From positions 1 to 32,860 of the forward strand of contig CANJRV010000027.1 in NCBI GenBank assembly GCA_947476825.1: a stretch of 32,860 nt of DNA, written 5' to 3'. Origin of the DNA: Bacteroidota bacterium. Its GTDB lineage: Bacteria; Bacteroidota; Bacteroidia; Chitinophagales; Chitinophagaceae. Below the pieces are notes generated by a model, which had not been told where the DNA came from, searched no databases, and worked only from the letters and a program-made list of their open reading frames with translations. Within the stretch, counting starts at the first letter, position 1; every line of letters begins with the position of its first letter. Position numbers and translations under genes: made by a program. Positions 2,634 to 32,860 of this stretch are shown piece by piece.

Positions 2634-3594
2634 TCATTTAGTTTGGTGTTGTCTTGTTCTATCTATTTGTTTAATTGCTTGCAAGAAAAATAAAATACAA
2701 GCCGATGTGACAGACAAATCATTGTCGATCGAAATGCGTTTGAATAAAATAAAATTCTTAGGAGATAAAGCATTTATGGTTGGTGGAGAACGATTTACAC
2801 AAGCGCATATTTATTCTCTAGAAAATGAAGGAAATGCACAAGATCTAGCATTACCTTCTACTGCTTCACAAAAGGAAATTTATGGATTAGATATTCGAAA
2901 CGATGGCCATATCATTGCAGTAGGATATGATGGTTCTGTGTTTACAAGCAAAGACAGTGGTATGACTTGGTCTTTCTCGCAACATGGCATGTGGAAAGAG
3001 TTTCAGGCTGTGGCTATAGGCTCCGATGATTCCGCATTAGTAGTTGGCGGGCATGGATTTAGAGAAGGAATTATTGCTCATATTTCGAATGAAGGCAATG
3101 GTAGTATAGCCTTATCTGAATTAAGAAATTTTGAAATGTCTGATATAGAATTTGCTTCTACCAATCGAGTGTATATCAGTGGGTATGGCGCTATTTTAAG
3201 ATCGAATGATGCAGGAAGTACTTGGAATTTTACCCATGCAAAAAATGAATTTTTCAAAGCCATGGCTTGGCAAAATGAAGAAACGGGAATCGCTATTGGT
3301 TACGAAGGTAGTATTTATAAAACCAGTGATGGTGGTAATGGATGGCGAGTGATTCGGAATGGGAATAATTTTTTAAAAAAGAAATATCACTTTTTAGATA
3401 TTGCAAAAAATAGTAGTGATACTTATGTCCTTGTTGGTGAAGAAGGAACTGTGTGGTTAAGTACAAATGGCGGTGAAGATTGGAAAGAACTTGCTTCCTT
3501 CACGAAAAAAGATTTACGAGGTGTCTCCTTTAGAAATGAAAATACATTTGTAGTTGTTGGAGAAGAGGGCGCTATTTTTTCGATTAAAATTTAA
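2626..3594 (+). CDS. Lipoprotein with Ycf48/BNR-type beta-propeller repeats
   Basis: A 322-residue protein starting at the ATG that overlaps the mutL stop (ATGCGTAA). The N-terminus is a lipoprotein signal, with hydrophobic residues followed by the lipobox LIAC and Cys20. The rest is built of repeats with the pattern GxxGxVxxSxDxGxTWxx: GYDGSVFTSKDSGMTW, GYGAILRSNDAGSTW, GYEGSIYKTSDGGNGW, GEEGTVWLSTNGGEDW and a final GEEGAIFSI. This is the Ycf48-like or sialidase BNR propeller pattern. In plants and cyanobacteria Ycf48 is an assembly factor for photosystem II; in Bacteroidota such propellers are exported proteins of unknown role. Translational coupling to mutL is likely, but no functional link is evident. 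Confidence 0.85.
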   Translation: MRNHLVWCCLVLSICLIACKKNKIQADVTDKSLSIEMRLNKIKFLGDKAFMVGGERFTQAHIYSLENEGNAQDLALPSTASQKEIYGLDIRNDGHIIAVGYDGSVFTSKDSGMTWSFSQHGMWKEFQAVAIGSDDSALVVGGHGFREGIIAHISNEGNGSIALSELRNFEMSDIEFASTNRVYISGYGAILRSNDAGSTWNFTHAKNEFFKAMAWQNEETGIAIGYEGSIYKTSDGGNGWRVIRNGNNFLKKKYHFLDIAKNSSDTYVLVGEEGTVWLSTNGGEDWKELASFTKKDLRGVSFRNENTFVVVGEEGAIFSIKI

Positions 3595-5757: not shown

Positions 5758-5862
5758 TCGCCATTTTGTAACATATCATGTAATGAGGCATACCAAATGT
5801 TGACATCAAAATCAAATGGTAATAGCCGAATTCCTCGTGGCAAAAAAAATAAATAGGAACAA

Positions 5863-6212
5863 ATGAAATGAGGCTTTACAAAATTTGTAATCCATATCAA
5901 ATGATAATAGCCGAATTCCATGTGACAAATGAAAAAAAATAAATAGGAACAAATGAAAAGAGGCTTTACAAAATTTGTAATCCATATCAAATGATAATAG
6001 CCGAATTCCATATGACAAATGAAAAAAAATAAATAGGAACAAATGAAAAGAGGCTTTACAAAATTTGTAATCCATATCAAATGATAATAGCCGAATTCCA
6101 TATGACAAATGAAAAAAAATAAATAGGAACAAATGAAATGAGGCTTTACAAAATTTGTAATCCATATCAAATGATAATAGCCGAATTCCATATGACAAAT
6201 GAAAAAAAATAA
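5863..6212 (+). other. Chained leader mini-ORFs inside the 90-bp repeats
   Basis: Copies at 5953 and 6043 encode MKRGFTKFVIHIK, whose TGA overlaps by ATGA the start of a second frame, MIIAEFHMTNEKK. The second frame is intact in all four units (5901-5942, 5991-6032, 6081-6122, 6171-6212; His-Val instead of His-Met in the first). Its TAA is followed by exactly ten bases, ATAGGAACAA, and then the next ATG. In copies 5863 and 6133 an A-to-T change turns the first frame into ATG AAA TGA. It also creates an overlapping ATG that extends the second frame to 24 codons (5868-5942 and 6138-6212). The last TAA lies ten bases before the PBP1A ATG. Translation is unproven. Confidence 0.45.
5876..6160. promoter_or_regulatory. 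Four operator-like palindromes TTACAAA-A-TTTGTAA, 90 bp apart
   Basis: Perfect 7-base arms around one A occur at 5876-5890, 5966-5980, 6056-6070 and 6146-6160. The degenerate first copy has lost the symmetry. They could be binding sites for a dimeric regulator placed once per repeat unit, or just part of the repeated sequence. Confidence 0.35.
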
Positions 6213-6222
6213 ATAGGAACAA

Positions 6223-8463
6223 ATGAAAAGAAGCATCAAGTTTTTATGGTTGGGTTTAATCATCTGTGTCCTTGGATTCAATATATTTATTTGGATGATC
6301 AATGAGGGATGGTTAGGCTATATGCCAAGAATGAAGGAATTAGAAAACCCTCAATCTGCAACTGCTTCTGAAATTTATTCTGGTAATGGAAATTTAATTG
6401 GCAAACTGTATTTAGAAAATAGGGATCCTTGCAAATTCAGTGAAATATCAACTTATGTATTTAATGCCTTGGTAGCAACAGAGGATGAACGATTTTACAA
6501 ACACAGTGGTATTGATGCAGAGGCTATAGGTAGAGCGGTTTTTGGGGTATTAACCTTGAATCCAAAAGGAGGTGCAAGTACAATAACACAACAACTTGCC
6601 AAACATTTATTAGATCAAGAATCTAGGTCTAAATTTTTTTTAGGGAAGTTATTGGAAAAATTAAAAGAACAAATTGTAGCGGTGAAATTGGAAAAGAATT
6701 TAACCAAACAAGAAATATTAACCCTTTACTTAAATACTGTTCCTTGGGGTTATAATGCTTATGGCATTAAGAGTGCGTCCAAAACTTATTTTAGTAAAAA
6801 ACCAATTGACTTAAAAATTGAAGAAGCAGCATTATTAATAGGAATGCTAAAGGGCTCTTCATTGTACAATCCATTGCGACATGTAGAACGAACAAGAGAT
6901 AGACGTAACACGGTTTTAGATCAAATGGTAAAAAATGCAAAAATAGATGGTGACGAAGCCGAACGTTTGAAAGAACTTCCAATCACTTTAGATTTTTCGC
7001 CAGAAAGTAATTTACAACATGAAGGTGTAGCACCTTATTTCAGGCAAGTAGTAGAACAAGATGTGAAAGTTTGGTGCAAGAAAAATGGCTTGAATATTTA
7101 TAAGGATGGCTTGAAAATTTATACTACCATCGATACCATTTTACAACGATATGCGGATGAAGCCGTACAAAAAAATATGTATGGTAAAACACGATTTGCG
7201 AATGCACAATTGTGGAATGAACATATGCCAACGCTTATGCGTGCCATCAAAGAAACAGATCGCTATAAAGGTTTAGTAGATGAAGGAAAGAGTGAGAAAG
7301 AGATCATGTCTATTTTTAATACCAAGACAAAAATGAAAGTTTTTTCATGGAATAATAAGCGGGAAAAAGACACTATTATTTCGCCTTTGGATAGTATTAA
7401 GTATATGAAAGGTTTTGTGCAAACTGGCTTCGTAGTGATGGATCCAGCTACAGGTGAAGTGAAGGCTTGGGTAGGTGGTATTGATCATAAATATTTTCAA
7501 TTTGATCACTGCAATATCAATACAAAACGACAAGTTGGTTCAACCATCAAACCATTATTATATTGCTTGGCTGTAGATAATGGCTATTCGCCATGTCAAT
7601 CCATAAGCTTGAATCCAGTGTATTTTCCTGGCTCTGGTTTATATGGTCCGGATAAAAGTAGAGGAGCAATGCAGATGAAAATTGCATTGGCAAAATCAAA
7701 AAATAATGCAACAGTAAATATTTTAAAATTAGTCGGCATAGACCATTTTGTAAAATTTCTTAAAACACTTGGTGTGGAAAGTAAAATCAATTCTTTCCCT
7801 TCCGTGTGTTTAGGTGCTGATGATATTTCCATTATTGAAATGTTGCGTGCTTATACCATGTTTCCAAATTATGGCATCAATACAAAGCCCATTTATATCA
7901 CTCGCATTGAAGATAGAAATGGCAACTTATTAGAAAATTTTGTACCAGAAAGAAATGAAGTGATTAATGAAATAACGGCGTACAAAATGATTCGTATGAT
8001 GATGGGAACCGTATTGATTGGGACTGCAAAACGATTGAAACCCGTATGGGGAATCACTGGTGAATGCGCTGGTAAAACAGGTACTACCAATAGTGAGGCC
8101 GATGCTTGGTTTATAGGTTATACACCACAATTATTAGCAGGTGCATGGGTTGGTTGCGATGATCGATTTATTGGTACAGGTTTAGGTGAAGGCGCTCGAG
8201 CAGCCATGCCAACTTGGGGTGAATTTTTTAAATCATTACAAGCGGATCCAAGATTGGGTTATTCTAAAATTGATGTATTTGAAAAACCAGTTTCTATGGA
8301 AGGTATGGATGAATGCGATGCCTCTGATGAAATAAGTTTGAAGAGAGCTGCAGCCATCATGAATGTTTCTCGAAGTGATAAACAAGTTGAAGATGATGAA
8401 CCAAAGGAGGAAAATCATTTTGACAATGGCGATAAAGGAACAGAAAAAGAAGATTATAAATAA
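6223..8463 (+). CDS. mrcA: Class A penicillin-binding protein 1A (bifunctional peptidoglycan glycosyltransferase/transpeptidase)
   Basis: A 746-residue protein that polymerises lipid II and cross-links the stem peptides. An N-terminal membrane anchor (about 7-27) is followed by the GT51 domain: EDERFYKHSGID (catalytic Glu87), GGASTITQQLAKHLL (117-130), the EKLKEQIVAVKLE helix and AALLIGMLKGSSLYNP. The transpeptidase domain has the acylation motif STIK (Ser440, Lys443), SKN (492-494) and KTG (618-620). The C-terminal tail is acidic and low in complexity. Length is normal for PBP1A. Its start codon is the last of a series of identical start regions in the 90-bp repeat array, which suggests unusual translational or copy-number-dependent control. 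It probably forms an operon with the following DUF3108 gene. Confidence 0.95.
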   Translation: MKRSIKFLWLGLIICVLGFNIFIWMINEGWLGYMPRMKELENPQSATASEIYSGNGNLIGKLYLENRDPCKFSEISTYVFNALVATEDERFYKHSGIDAEAIGRAVFGVLTLNPKGGASTITQQLAKHLLDQESRSKFFLGKLLEKLKEQIVAVKLEKNLTKQEILTLYLNTVPWGYNAYGIKSASKTYFSKKPIDLKIEEAALLIGMLKGSSLYNPLRHVERTRDRRNTVLDQMVKNAKIDGDEAERLKELPITLDFSPESNLQHEGVAPYFRQVVEQDVKVWCKKNGLNIYKDGLKIYTTIDTILQRYADEAVQKNMYGKTRFANAQLWNEHMPTLMRAIKETDRYKGLVDEGKSEKEIMSIFNTKTKMKVFSWNNKREKDTIISPLDSIKYMKGFVQTGFVVMDPATGEVKAWVGGIDHKYFQFDHCNINTKRQVGSTIKPLLYCLAVDNGYSPCQSISLNPVYFPGSGLYGPDKSRGAMQMKIALAKSKNNATVNILKLVGIDHFVKFLKTLGVESKINSFPSVCLGADDISIIEMLRAYTMFPNYGINTKPIYITRIEDRNGNLLENFVPERNEVINEITAYKMIRMMMGTVLIGTAKRLKPVWGITGECAGKTGTTNSEADAWFIGYTPQLLAGAWVGCDDRFIGTGLGEGARAAMPTWGEFFKSLQADPRLGYSKIDVFEKPVSMEGMDECDASDEISLKRAAAIMNVSRSDKQVEDDEPKEENHFDNGDKGTEKEDYK

Positions 8464-18918: not shown

Positions 18919-19605
18919 TTAATTATGAATTAAACTGGCAAATAATTTACGACCATCTACATTTTCTAAGGTAGGCGAACAGGCTCTTTCGGGATGTGGC
19001 ATCATACCAAATACATTGCGACCTGCATTACATATACCTGCAATTGCATTGGTTGATCCATTTGGATTTTCTTGTCCTATTACCCCTGCTCGATTACAAT
19101 ATCTAAAAATGACTTGGTCATTGTCTTCTAATTGTTGCAGCGTTTGCGCATCCGCATAATATCTGCCTTCGCCATGTGCTACTGGAATTTGCAACACTTG
19201 ATTTTTAATGTCTTTTGTTATTGGTGATGCATCATTCTCACTTTGGATAAATACATTTTTACAAACAAATTTTTGGGTGTCGTTCAATAATAATGCGCCG
19301 GGTAATAAACCAGCTTCGCACAATATTTGAAATCCATTGCAAACACCAAGTACTTTTCCGCCACGATTGGCATGTGCAATTACACTTTCCATCATTGGGC
19401 TGAAACGCGCCAGAGCACCACATCTTAAATAATCGCCATAGGAAAAACCACCGGGTAAAACGATACAGTCTTCTTTGCCAAAAGCACTGATATCTTTATC
19501 TTTATGCCATAACATAATCACTTCTTGCTCTAACTCATGACGTAATGCAAATTCCATATCGCGGTCACAATTAGAACCAGGGAAAACAACAACTCCGAAT
19601 TTCAT
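18919..19605 (-). CDS. purQ: Phosphoribosylformylglycinamidine synthase, glutaminase subunit PurQ
   Basis: A 228-residue class I glutamine amidotransferase that supplies ammonia to PurL in step four of purine synthesis. It starts MKFGVVVFPGSNCDRD, with PGGFSYGDYLRCGA, the nucleophile Cys89 in GVCNGFQIL, and His204/Glu206 in MMPHPERA completing the triad. The length is that of a separate PurQ, so separate PurL and PurS subunits should be encoded elsewhere; neither is in the window. The ATG at 19605 is chosen over an in-frame upstream start that would overlap the preceding gene and add ten unrelated residues. Confidence 0.95.
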   Translation of the reverse strand: MKFGVVVFPGSNCDRDMEFALRHELEQEVIMLWHKDKDISAFGKEDCIVLPGGFSYGDYLRCGALARFSPMMESVIAHANRGGKVLGVCNGFQILCEAGLLPGALLLNDTQKFVCKNVFIQSENDASPITKDIKNQVLQIPVAHGEGRYYADAQTLQQLEDNDQVIFRYCNRAGVIGQENPNGSTNAIAGICNAGRNVFGMMPHPERACSPTLENVDGRKLFASLIHN

Positions 19606-19622
19606 GCTTAAATAGTATTGGT

Positions 19623-20603
19623 TTAGAAAAGCCATTGCACGATGACAATGACCGAAAGTAAAAAATAGAATGTAAATATATTATATTTTTCCTTTTGGTT
19701 GTGAAAGGCTTGACTTAAAATAATGCTAATTGGCGTAATTGCTAATAGCCAAGGCAATCCTGGGAAAATATTCGCGAATATGCCAATCAGGACAGAAAAT
19801 ATTAAATACAGGATAATCACATTCCATTTCTTCTGCACGGCAATCGGGTTTTTGATGCCAGATTGATTGATTAAGTAAAGACTATGTACTATGAGAAATA
19901 ATGAAGTAATGGTGAGGATGATGAATTGCACATTGGAAATTAATTTCAAGGGTAAATATATATGTAGAAATAAATGAGGCATCACAGAATGCCAATGTCC
20001 AGTAAGAAAAACAATGCCTAGCGCGAAATAGAAAGGTGTAACGATGCCGAATACATAAGCCAATATTTCTTTAAATGAAAAGGAACGCAAAATGAGCAAC
20101 GTCATCAAAAAGAATATAAACATGGGTATTGCAGGAAAATAGAACAAGCAAGCAGCAGATACCCAAATGCCTATGTCGAAACTGGCTATTTTGGAAGACC
20201 GTGAATGGTAGAGCTGTAAAGACTTTGCGAATGCAATAAATAGGCAAATATTCGCTATAAATACGGTGGAAAATAAAGTTAAGGAAGGCACCAATGCACT
20301 ATATAAAACCAGTGCCAGAGCGGGTAACATGCTTTTGCGTTGGTACAGTTTTTCTTCATTAATGACATAGTTAAAATAAAAAGCAAACAATAAAAAAAGA
20401 ATGGTAGAAATAAAAAGATACAATACAGGTTGATGGATATAGAATTCCTTCAAGCTTTGCCAAGTGAAAAAAAGACCTTGGTTAAAATCAGAAATGCTTT
20501 GTACGTCAGGAGGATGTAAAAATAGATGCACTCTGGTTAGGAGAGTCAGCACTATCAAGCCTATGGAAGAGGCAATGTCATTACGTTTGAACAGTTGAAT
20601 CAC
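19623..20603 (-). CDS. Polytopic membrane protein, DUF6427-like
   Basis: A 326-residue, very hydrophobic protein with about nine or ten predicted membrane helices and no soluble domain. The start MIQLFKRNDIASSIGLIVLTLLTRVHLFLHPP and the LPWLLAITPISIILSQAFHNQKEK segment near the end fit the DUF6427 group of Bacteroidota membrane proteins, which are commonly encoded beside purine or uracil genes. The function is unknown. The start codon is GTG, 9 bases after the previous gene, and it is followed after 17 bases by purQ. The assignment to DUF6427 rests on overall pattern and context. Confidence 0.65.
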   Translation of the reverse strand: MIQLFKRNDIASSIGLIVLTLLTRVHLFLHPPDVQSISDFNQGLFFTWQSLKEFYIHQPVLYLFISTILFLLFAFYFNYVINEEKLYQRKSMLPALALVLYSALVPSLTLFSTVFIANICLFIAFAKSLQLYHSRSSKIASFDIGIWVSAACLFYFPAIPMFIFFLMTLLILRSFSFKEILAYVFGIVTPFYFALGIVFLTGHWHSVMPHLFLHIYLPLKLISNVQFIILTITSLFLIVHSLYLINQSGIKNPIAVQKKWNVIILYLIFSVLIGIFANIFPGLPWLLAITPISIILSQAFHNQKEKYNIFTFYFLLSVIVIVQWLF

Positions 20604-22870: not shown

Positions 22871-22934
22871 TGCCAGTAGCATTAATTTTTAATCATTATA
22901 ACACCACAACCTATCATCCAAGGATCTGGGTTTT

Positions 22935-23016
22935 GCGGCAACGATTGTAATGGAAATCCTTTTTGCGGCGAAGCAAGCAAAAAGATTGAAATGGAAAGCG
23001 TGTGGGCCGCCCAAAA
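22935..23016 (+). repeat. Interspersed GCGGCAACG element, copy 1
   Basis: An 82-bp element running from GCGGCAACGATTG to GGCCGCCCAAAA. It has an internal hairpin, CTTTTTGC and GCAAAAAG around GGCGAAGCAA. It differs from copy 3 (30379-30460) at only four positions and lies between lipB and rluD. A 75-codon minus-strand frame through it is not considered a gene. Confidence 0.8.
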
Positions 23017-29948: not shown

Positions 29949-30005
29949 GACGCATTGTAATGTAAACCAAAAATAAAATAAAGAGTAATTCGAAGATGTT
30001 TGACC

Positions 30006-30013
30006 TATTTTTG
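30006..30013 (+). promoter_or_regulatory. Putative -7 box (TATTTTTG) for yidD
   Basis: A perfect TAnnTTTG match 17 bases before the TTG start of yidD, the same spacing as at gltX, pcaF and the antitoxin gene. Confidence 0.3.
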
Positions 30014-30030
30014 TTCTTGAATTTTTACCC

Positions 30031-30255
30031 TTGAAAAAAATAATTATTTGGATTTTGATTACGGTCATTAAAGCATATCAGGCAATAATATCGCCATGGC
30101 TAGGACCATCAAAATGCCGCTACCAGCCTACTTGTTCGGCATACGCACAAACTGCATTGCAACGATATGGCTTATTAAAAGGTTTTTGGTTGAGCATAAA
30201 AAGAATAGCTAGATGTGCACCTTGGGGCGGCCATGGTTATGACCCAGTTCCATAA
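30031..30255 (+). CDS. yidD: Membrane protein insertion efficiency factor YidD
   Basis: A 74-residue protein with the full family pattern: an amphipathic N-terminal helix, then [32 protein letters not shown], and at the end [17 protein letters not shown] with the conserved cysteines. YidD assists YidC in inserting proteins into the inner membrane. The start is TTG (TTGAAAAAAATA); no ATG, GTG or other TTG gives the complete domain. It usually neighbours rnpA, rpmH and yidC; none of these is nearby, so this is a stand-alone copy, as is common in Bacteroidota. Confidence 0.92.
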
Positions 30256-30311
30256 AAAAATGCGAAATTAAAAATGGGTTAAAGAGGCAATTTTAATTTT
30301 TAAGATTTTTA

Positions 30312-30346
30312 TAAGGAAGGCTTCTCTCTAAGCGAAGCCTTCCTTA
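30312..30346. repeat. Perfect 13-bp-stem hairpin, module accompanying repeat copy 3
   Basis: TAAGGAAGGCTTC and GAAGCCTTCCTTA flank a 9-base loop, 57 bases after yidD. No T-run follows on either strand, so a standard intrinsic terminator is unlikely. A diverged version lies beside repeat copy 2, so it belongs to the composite repeat. Confidence 0.75.
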
Positions 30347-30378
30347 CATTCCTTGTATCCTTATATGCACTGTGCATT

Positions 30379-30460
30379 GCGGCAACGATTGTAGTGGAAA
30401 TCCTTTTTGCGGCGAAGCAAGCAAAAAGATTGGAACGGAAAGCGTGTGAGCCGCCCAAAA
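30379..30460 (+). repeat. Interspersed GCGGCAACG element, copy 3
   Basis: An 82-bp copy with four differences from copy 1 and the same inner hairpin (CTTTTTGC/GCAAAAAG). It is preceded by TGTGCATT, as copy 2 is by TGTATT. It occupies the 311-base gap between yidD and the protease gene; the rest of the gap holds no recognised gene. Confidence 0.8.
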
Positions 30461-30566
30461 AATCTCATTAAAAATTTAGTGTAGTCCATTTTTAGAACCA
30501 TCCATAAAATTCTAAGTTGCTGTATTTGTTTTTTTCAATAAATTGCACCACACTTTAATTCCTTCC

Positions 30567-32243
30567 ATGAAAAAAATAGTTCAACAGTCTAAGAAATATG
30601 TAGCCGGTGCATTTGTAGGTATGGTTATTCTACTTTGTATTCAAGCCAAAGAAGTAGACAATTATTTTGAAATCTCTAAAAACATGGAAGTCTTCACTTC
30701 GTTATTTAAAGAATTAAATACCTATTATGTAGACCCAATACAACCGGGCAAACTGATGAAAAAAGGAATGGATGCCATGCTCAATGATTTAGATCCATAC
30801 ACAAATTATATCACGGAAGAAGATGTGGAAGATTCTCGTTTTCAAACAACAGGTAAATATGGTGGCATAGGTAGTACCGTGCGAAAAAAGGATGACTATA
30901 TTGCCATTTCAGAACCTTATGAAAATAGCCCCATCATCAAAGCTGGCATCAAAGCTGGTGATGTGATTATGGAGATAGATGGACATACTACGAAGAATAA
31001 GGAAATTGAGGATATCAGTAAATTTTTAAAAGGCAGTGCAGGTACGCAAGTCAAATTAAAAATTAGAGATGGCGTTACCAATGAAGTGTCGACCAAGACG
31101 GTTACAAGAGAAGAAATAACTGTGACGAGTGTTCCGTATGCAGGCATGTTAGGTGCTAGCAATGAATATGGGTATGTGCGATTGACGCAATTTACAGAGC
31201 GTTGTGCTAGCCTTGTTCGTGGGGCATTAGACAGTTTGAAAAAAGCTAATCCAAACATGAAAGGCGTTATCATCGATTTGCGATATAATCCTGGTGGACT
31301 ATTGGATGAAGCAGTTGCCATTGCCAATTTATTTATCAATGGAGGACAAATAGTAGTGACTACTAAAGGAAAAAATACAGAATGGAATAAAGAATATAAA
31401 ACACAAAACGCACCTTGGGATGAAAAAATTCCTTTGACTGTTTTGGTAAATCGCAATTCTGCATCGGCTTCAGAAATTATTGCTGGCACCATGCAAGATT
31501 TAGACAGAGGCGTGATTATCGGGCAACGTAGTTTTGGTAAAGGCTTGGTACAAAATTTACGCTCTCTTCCATTCAATGCGAAGCTAAAAGTAACAACGGC
31601 AAAGTATTATACACCAAGCGGCAGATGTATACAAGCATTGGATTATACACATAGAAATGAAGATGGTTCGGTAGGTGAAATTTCAGATTCATTGAAAACA
31701 AAATTCAAAACAAAAAATGGTCGCATCGTAATGGACGGCGGCGGTGTAGATCCAGATATCAAATTAACGGCAAAGGAATCGTTGGGCATTGTGAATTCCT
31801 TAAATACAAAATCATTTGCCTTTGATTATGCAACACAATATGTAGCAAAACATGCGACAGTATCTTCTGCGAAAGATTTTACATTGAGTGAAACAGACTT
31901 CAATGATTTCTTCCAATGGTTGGAAGGAAAAGATTATTCATACAAAACAAAGTCGGAGGAATCATTGGTTAAATTTAAAGAAATCGCAGTGAAAGAAAAT
32001 TATTTTACTGCTATTCAACAAGACTTTGAAAGCTTGCAAAAATCACTTTCGCATGATAAGAAACAAGACTTAATTAAAAATAAAAAAGAGATACTTCGTT
32101 TGTTGCAAGATGAAATTATAACGCGTTATTATTTTCAAAGAGGTCGTTTCCAAAATCAATTAGCAGATGATGATGAAGTAAAAGAAGCCATTTCTGTGTT
32201 GGGGAATGGAAGTAAGTATAAGGGGTTGTTGGGAGTGAAATAG
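30567..32243 (+). CDS. ctpA: C-terminal processing peptidase (S41 family, CtpA/Prc)
   Basis: A 558-residue exported serine protease that trims C-termini of periplasmic proteins. An N-terminal signal/anchor helix (about 10-26) is followed by a helical region (YYVDPIQPGKLMKKGMDAML, DPYTNYITEED), a PDZ domain (about 95-175; GGIGSTVRKKDDYIAISEPYENSPIIKAGIKAGDVIMEIDG) and the S41 core with IIDLRYNPGGLLDEAV. The Ser-Lys dyad is Ser300 (NRNSASASEIIAGTMQD) and Lys325 (SFGKGLVQ), with the 25-residue spacing of CtpA/Prc. A C-terminal helical extension of about 170 residues is longer than in CtpA. Its TAG stop is the first triplet of the 318-bp repeat. Confidence 0.93.
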   Translation: MKKIVQQSKKYVAGAFVGMVILLCIQAKEVDNYFEISKNMEVFTSLFKELNTYYVDPIQPGKLMKKGMDAMLNDLDPYTNYITEEDVEDSRFQTTGKYGGIGSTVRKKDDYIAISEPYENSPIIKAGIKAGDVIMEIDGHTTKNKEIEDISKFLKGSAGTQVKLKIRDGVTNEVSTKTVTREEITVTSVPYAGMLGASNEYGYVRLTQFTERCASLVRGALDSLKKANPNMKGVIIDLRYNPGGLLDEAVAIANLFINGGQIVVTTKGKNTEWNKEYKTQNAPWDEKIPLTVLVNRNSASASEIIAGTMQDLDRGVIIGQRSFGKGLVQNLRSLPFNAKLKVTTAKYYTPSGRCIQALDYTHRNEDGSVGEISDSLKTKFKTKNGRIVMDGGGVDPDIKLTAKESLGIVNSLNTKSFAFDYATQYVAKHATVSSAKDFTLSETDFNDFFQWLEGKDYSYKTKSEESLVKFKEIAVKENYFTAIQQDFESLQKSLSHDKKQDLIKNKKEILRLLQDEIITRYYFQRGRFQNQLADDDEVKEAISVLGNGSKYKGLLGVK

Positions 32244-32860
32244 GATTTCAATTGTTTCTTCTAATTGTCTGAACTAGGTTACTTCGAATGCGCTCAAGTA
32301 CAGGTATTTTTGATTTGTGTAATGGCTACTATTTTTGCTATTAATCATAGTTGTCATTTCATCATTTAAATCATAGTTCAAAGACAGTTTCCGCCGTTGT
32401 TGGTGTTATCACCAATAACCACCATGTTACAAATATCTCGATCTAATAGAGGCTTACAGTTTTTATTTTAATCTTGTTCTGGGTTTACAAAAATATTTTT
32501 CTTTGATAATAATTGTTCTATTAAAATATTGTTGGTGATAACACCAACAATGGCGGTATAGGATTTCAATAGTTTCTTCTCATTGTCTGAACTAGGTTAC
32601 TTCGAATGCGCTCAAGTACATGTTTTTTTGATTTGTGTTAAGGCTATGATTTCTGCTATTCATCATAGTTTTCATTTCATCATTTACATCATAGTTCAAA
32701 GACAGGTTCCGCCGTTGTTGGTGTTCTCACCAATAACCACCATGTTACAAATATCTCGATCTAATAGAGGCTTACAGTTTTTATTTTAATCTTGTTCTGG
32801 GTTTACAAAAATATTTTTCTTTGATAATAATTGTTCTATTAAAATATTGTTGGTGATAAC
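32241..32860 (+). repeat. 318-bp tandem repeat, at least 1.95 copies, running off the window
   Basis: The first copy is 32241-32558; the second starts at 32559 and is cut by the window end. There is no length difference between the copies. The first half, from TAGGATTTCAAT to about 32408, shows about 14 substitutions between copies. The next 134 bases (32409-32542 against 32727-32860) are identical. The left half carries GTCTGAACTA and, further on, TAGTTCAAAGACAG as a diverged inverted pair. The right half is bounded by the inverted repeat listed separately. No protein gene was recognised in this 617-base stretch; a 68-codon frame in it is judged random. Confidence 0.9.
32391..32556. repeat. 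166-bp segment bounded by 25-bp inverted repeats (MITE-like), first copy
   Basis: The left end (32391-32415, starting CCGCCGTTGTTGGTG) and the right end (32532-32556, ending ACCAACAATGGCGG) are reverse complements with one mismatch. Each end also folds on itself: the right one forms a perfect 10-bp stem, ATTGTTGGTG/CACCAACAAT, around ATAA (32528-32551). The second copy begins at 32709. No transposase gene is present. It could be a non-autonomous mobile element or a pair of regulatory/terminator hairpins. Confidence 0.65.

Follow-up and report, generated by a model that had tools for sequence, protein, structure and literature searches.

A tandem repeat that starts at the stop codon of an S41 peptidase gene raises the question of how neighbouring copies of one unit could diverge over their first part and be identical over their second. 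The window (the whole stretch of DNA that was analysed, 32,860 nucleotides) is the entire contig C27 of the source genome (G000, 184 contigs) and its end falls within the repeat, where a full copy of 318 bp (32241-32558) is followed by one cut by the contig end at 302 of the 318 positions (32559-32860). Fourteen substitutions separate the two copies, all at unit positions 13-168 and none at 169-302; the last 134 unit positions before the window end are identical, in agreement with the original prediction of a 318-bp tandem duplication with about 14 early substitutions and 134 clean positions thereafter. A clean run of at least this length has a probability of 0.0034 when 14 changes are scattered randomly over 302 sites. 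A Fisher test (14/168 versus 0/150) gave P = 1.2e-4, for a breakpoint picked post hoc and with 16 of the 150 second-part sites taken from another contig, C121. The repeat had also been predicted to begin at the S41 stop codon: the TAG is indeed the start of the unit, and the match extends one base 5' of it.

That the array would go on beyond the window was borne out by contig C121 which, reverse complemented, opens with the last 83 bases of the window as an exact overlap. Beyond this overlap come the end of the second part (B), a third first part (A3), itself diverged, and then the next gene, whose protein begins MKLKNLLLPFC and matched no Pfam family. Because C121 carries the overlap, A3 and this next gene, and because the same gene pair occurs in the sister genome G009, the two contigs are most likely neighbours and form a locus that reads A1-B1-A2-B2-A3, with at least two B copies, this copy number being a minimum. 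Reading the adjacent sequence added a third A. Array structure and gene context are both well supported; the coordinates of the features are collected in Table 1.

Table 1. Features of the S41 locus and lengths of direct duplications by event alignment against empty sites
Feature	Position or contig	Strand	Remarks
S41 peptidase gene with PDZ domain, 558 aa	30567-32243	+	stop codon 32241-32243; Pfam PF03572 Peptidase_S41, E 3.2e-50
A1, first part of unit 1	32241-32390	+	core 32265-32386, imperfect inverted ends TTGTCTGAACTA ... TAGTTCAAAGACA
B1 (about 166 nt)	32391-32556		bounded by inverted palindromes CCGCCGTTGTTGGTGTTATCACCAATAA ... TTGTTGGTGATAACACCAACAATGGCGG; predicted single-stranded DNA fold -29.3 kcal/mol, z -6.8
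B1 left palindrome	32397-32418	-	tag CGCC at its left
B1 right palindrome	32529-32550	+	TGGCGG directly after
A2, first part of unit 2	32559-32708	+	differs from A1 at 13/152 and from A3 at 11/151 positions (gaps left out)
B2, cut at contig end	32709-32860		runs on into C121 (overlap)
Identical stretch	32409-32542 = 32727-32860		unit positions 169-302; starts within left palindrome of B1
Event alignment	C16		101-bp repeats around 29-nt palindrome insert
Event alignment	C126		52-bp duplication
Event alignment	C94 (G000)		29 bp around inverted pair of 67-68 nt
Event alignment	C13 (G009)		28 bp around inverted pair of 67-68 nt
Event alignment	C40 (G009)		28-bp duplication; 16 by BLAST ends
Event alignment	uvrC-like gene site		155-bp duplication
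Event alignment	C82		63 bp, tandem copy with palindrome inside

Within the array, A1 and A3 differ at 16 of 151-152 positions, and the range among all A pairs is 11-16 differences over about 151 positions (7-11%); each of the three copies differs from the A of the sister genome by 11-14 changes (7-9%). By these alignments, the A copies are about as distant from one another as the A of one of the two species is from that of the other, whereas B1 and B2 show no differences. An alignment of all copies, suggested at the outset as a check, accordingly found the third A copy diverged by 7-11% and B identical throughout the sequence at hand, and not an even divergence. At fourfold sites of the two neighbouring genes, the two species differ by 29% (59/204) and 19% (19/100). 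Conflicting shared changes were seen among the A copies, A2 being equal to A3 at alignment columns 19, 109 and 154 and to A1 at 45-71, which suggests that exchange between copies may have occurred. The mosaic signal is weak (nine mismatches for the best three-piece mosaic versus 13 for either parent, gap columns counted), and parallel change is therefore possible.

Resemblances to both parts were seen elsewhere. The A part (about 150 nt) resembles the flanks of some GxxExxY genes in the source genome, where eight matches to PF13366 (GxxExxY) were found, two of them with internal stops. Repeats of this kind are associated with GxxExxY genes, as was seen at some of these loci: the gene on C10 is flanked by TTGTCTGAACTATGATT and ATCATAGTTCAGACAA, similar to the ends of A, and related repeats lie near those on C44, C63 and C11. 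No A-like repeat was seen in the flanks inspected at C56 and C153, and the loci on C168 and C172 have one side cut by contig ends.

B consists of about 110 nt flanked on both sides by a dispersed 22-bp palindrome with a GGCG tag, the two being inverted relative to each other, and is predicted to fold into a hairpin with a 25-bp stem. The palindrome reads TTGTTGGTGATAACACCAACAA followed by a YGGCG tag; according to our own reading, its stem comprises 10 bp closed by an R-Y pair. With at most one mismatch, it occurs at 31 forward and 32 reverse places in the source genome (0 and 1 for a reversed-pattern control); 39 places were found at up to five mismatches in the loci of this genome that were examined. 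GGCG stands 3' of the palindrome (CGCC 5' on the opposite strand) in most of the 75 copies listed, and an intergenic position was observed at single loci, without a count. The exact core was present in 17 of 294 family genomes and was commonest in G009 (29) and G000 (21), the next genome having 9. Tandem copies of the palindrome with its flank exist at other loci of the source genome (C18, C82, C70 and C95), and units of two palindromes (67-68 nt) in one species have an empty counterpart in the other where the sites can be aligned (C94 of G000, C13 of G009). The sister genome also has a B-like segment at a second place, between identical 48-bp direct repeats; this segment, not a strict orthologue, has 29 differences to B1 over 167 aligned positions and 46 further gap positions, so that B-like sequence is not generally invariant. 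In the search for a mobilising enzyme, palindrome pairs were found to enclose an 840-aa protein with Laminin_G_3 and Lcl_C domains (C138) and frames of 94 and 128 aa (L162); no frame of at least 70 aa lies between the pair at 3388 and 3632 of C170. In another genus of the family (G235, L170 1252-1850), palindromes were seen in 41-bp tandem units beside a 199-bp direct repeat (98.5%). The literature, searched by repeat names and not by palindrome letters, yielded no description of the GGCG-tagged palindrome, and the repeat may still be described.

The history of the locus was approached through the genus. The sister contig C35 corresponds to CAMDVD010000035.1, from a MAG that carries the label Chitinophaga pinensis (stretch L111 of the record includes three stretches of G009), and its S41 protein is 97% identical over 1-558. 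There, the S41 gene is followed by a single A and then by the same next gene (94.9% identical). All 14 genus genomes gave a match to the S41 gene, and 12 of them have sequence beyond its stop; only G000 and G009 showed a palindrome or A motif at up to about 1.5 kb from that stop, and in the ten others with readable sequence, neither was seen there. The next gene was found near the S41 stop only in G009, the window contig being too short for it, and the S41 sites of the other genus genomes are not strictly comparable because this gene did not turn up in their vicinity. G009 may once have had the array and lost it, instead of never having formed it. Other features of the window were recorded in passing. 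A Flavo-1 RNA (RF01705) lies at 30377-30453, just upstream of the S41 gene, and its stretch also aligns at two places of the sister contig and to the sister match of window positions 22930-23014. Positions 30322 and 30469, 147 bases apart in the window, enclose about 4.7 kb in the sister (C35 15780-20481). A 90-bp tandem repeat with 4.3 copies and 98% matches occupies 5842-6231.

We interpret the locus as an intergenic mosaic array of two unrelated dispersed repeats behind the S41 gene, similar in kind to REP and NIME arrays, in which B has recently been homogenised or newly duplicated; we would give this a probability of roughly 0.55. A would have entered the locus before the two species split, and B would have arrived beside it in the lineage of the source genome along with a direct duplication of A. 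The unit could then have multiplied by unequal exchange or by template switching at hairpins. Later, the A copies would have drifted and B would recently have been made identical by gene conversion, for example when a break in the B hairpin was repaired with the adjacent copy as template; conversion of this kind would account for an identical tract beginning inside the left palindrome. The odd divergence pattern would thus be explained by the layering of two repeat families. Any role of the array is likely incidental, although transcript ends may be affected by hairpins that follow a gene.

Among the causes of uneven divergence that had been proposed, conversion of the hairpin-bounded half and insertion of one segment into diverged copies are both compatible with our data, given that B is bounded by inverted palindromes, that a B-like second site exists in G009 and that A diverged while B did not; the third, in which one half is under selection, is disfavoured. 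Gene conversion would leave the same pattern as a second, recent insertion of B. We infer gene conversion between neighbouring copies as first choice, recent double insertion as second and assembly collapse as third. According to the insertion scenario, B would be a miniature mobile element that recently inserted into two A copies, already old and diverged, at one and the same position, without any need for conversion. The resemblance of its inverted ends to the dispersed palindrome family, the presence or absence of the 67-68 nt units at alignable sites and the 48-bp direct repeats around the second segment in the sister all fit such an element. However, both B copies occupy exactly the same place relative to A, and pass into the following A at an identical right-hand junction, so that the same target would have to have been chosen twice, and no transposase with the ends of B was found among the Y1 matches of the source genome or the IS1634-family matches of 17 genomes. 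This scenario is, in our estimate, somewhat unlikely.

Two candidate systems for mobilising the palindrome were considered and rejected. The source genome has eight Y1 transposase matches, among them five RAYT-like genes (L102-L106, frames of 167-205 aa) that sit among other repeats, with families of their own. No GGCG-tagged palindrome at up to four mismatches was present in L102-L108, and on C126 a Y1 gene and a palindrome are about 5.4 kb apart. Mobilisation as a RAYT-dependent REP was discarded, no RAYT gene being flanked by the GGCG-tagged palindrome and the Y1 genes being accompanied by other repeats. A miniature element of an IS1634-family transposase was likewise discarded: none of the 17 genomes, all of which carry the exact palindrome core, had a transposase of this family over the cut-off, and the weak matches in three of them (L219-L221) had no palindrome at up to five mismatches.

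Direct duplications around the palindromes were analysed separately, as the pair of sister genomes lets very short palindrome insertions be compared with empty sites. After masking of the palindromes, a scan of 43 loci placed 13 of 50 palindrome clusters within bracketing direct repeats, the figure for intergenic control positions being 82 of 1258 (P = 1.4e-5, with control points of one repeat not independent); among additional loci, 3 of 15 from other genera and 1 of 4 from the same genus had such bracketing repeats. Event alignment at 12 sites gave duplications at seven (Table 1) and none at five, namely G009 C8, C54 and C93, the S41 array and C70; at several palindrome sites, the orthologous place was not found or only one flank aligned. 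C8 and C54 have weak repeats by BLAST and by eye, and none were visible by eye at C93 and G009 C40:33354. All inserts were then counted in 26 orthologous pairs (73,090 aligned bases), which gave 24 rows; two window rows, where the array was chained to the second site, were dropped and three pure tandem duplications were set apart. Inserts with a palindrome had duplications of at least 16 bp in five of seven cases (1, 4, 16, 28, 29, 52 and 101 bp), and those without one in five of 12 (24, 27, 68, 93 and 152 bp, the other seven 0-4). Two of the inserts without a palindrome were looked at more closely. A uvrC-like gene (UvrC_RNaseH_dom; L082 271-1521, C13 of G000 about 19070-20320) has 152-155 bp of its 3' end duplicated around an insert of 932-936 bp absent from the sister, and on C152 (G000, L074 2846-3710) 93-bp direct repeats, of which the sister has a single copy, enclose about 680 bp (679 bp). 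By eye, the latter insert seems to contain two small open frames. Long duplications are thus common here, and the palindrome is not established as their cause: this reading is weakened because inserts without a palindrome also have duplications, the difference between 5/7 and 5/12 being small, and because the loci were mostly chosen for nearness to palindromes. It is conceivable, if unlikely, that the GGCG-tagged palindrome is mobile, either singly (29 nt) or in inverted pairs, and that this mini-element duplicates its target on insertion, through a nicking or template-switching machinery, in stretches that are long and vary in length (28, 28, 29, 52 and 101 bp in the event alignments and perhaps about 150 bp in the window), repeated events building arrays such as the one studied here. 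If palindromes make the long duplications, their mobilisation would follow a route unlike that expected of RAYT-type single-strand transposition.

An assembly product, in which B copies collapsed into one graph node or strains were mixed, is improbable. The window contig and C121 do both end within B with an overlap of exactly 83 bases, in a genome of 184 contigs, and the near-identical flanks of C168 and C172 suggest duplicates or strain variants. However, B changing at the rate of A would have about 12 changes per 150 bases (the chance of none being 2e-6), copies so different would not normally collapse, and the sister genome independently has the gene pair with one A. Selection for a constant B, for instance as a terminator or RNA hairpin, could be imagined from its strong predicted fold behind a gene but is very improbable, since the B-like segment at the second site of the sister (not a strict orthologue) is 17% different with many gaps, and since in 30001-32860 Rfam gave no family at gathering score except Flavo-1 at 30377-30453.

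The preferred reading, a mosaic array with recently homogenised or newly duplicated B, can be set beside several known systems. GxxExxY is mentioned once in PMC8934634, and the biology of TnpAREP is covered in sections of PMC8266576. Long variable direct repeats of 8-514 bp are described beside insertions of IS1634 and IS1549 in a passage of PMC2266710; some of the inserts observed here have duplications of variable, long size as well, but others have none and the 17 genomes had no transposase of the family over the cut-off. The account of REP and BIME clusters in part of PMC3733652 concerns GTAG- and CGTC-tagged palindromes of 20-40 bp in many copies, often as inverted pairs, with CGTC elements reported in Bacteroidetes too and large clusters formed by tandem reiteration with flanking DNA of variable length. 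Our palindrome belongs to the same 20-40 bp class, is present in many copies and forms an array with flanking DNA in tandem. It differs from the elements of that account by its tag, which in most of the copies listed is CGCC/GGCG, one base from CGTC, in place of CGTC, TGTC, CCTC or GTAG, and the repeats beside the five RAYT-like genes are of other kinds. The intergenic mosaic elements of Neisseria, as outlined in part of PMC3898611, combine dRS3/RS inverted repeats with segments of 30-160 bp in intergenic arrays. Their dRS3, ATTCCC(N8)GGGAAT, is unrelated to TTGTTGGTGATAACACCAACAA in sequence and in phylum, but the arrangement is alike as far as this outline goes: B1 is a segment between inverted short repeats, the array continues on C121, and the locus would work like a NIME.
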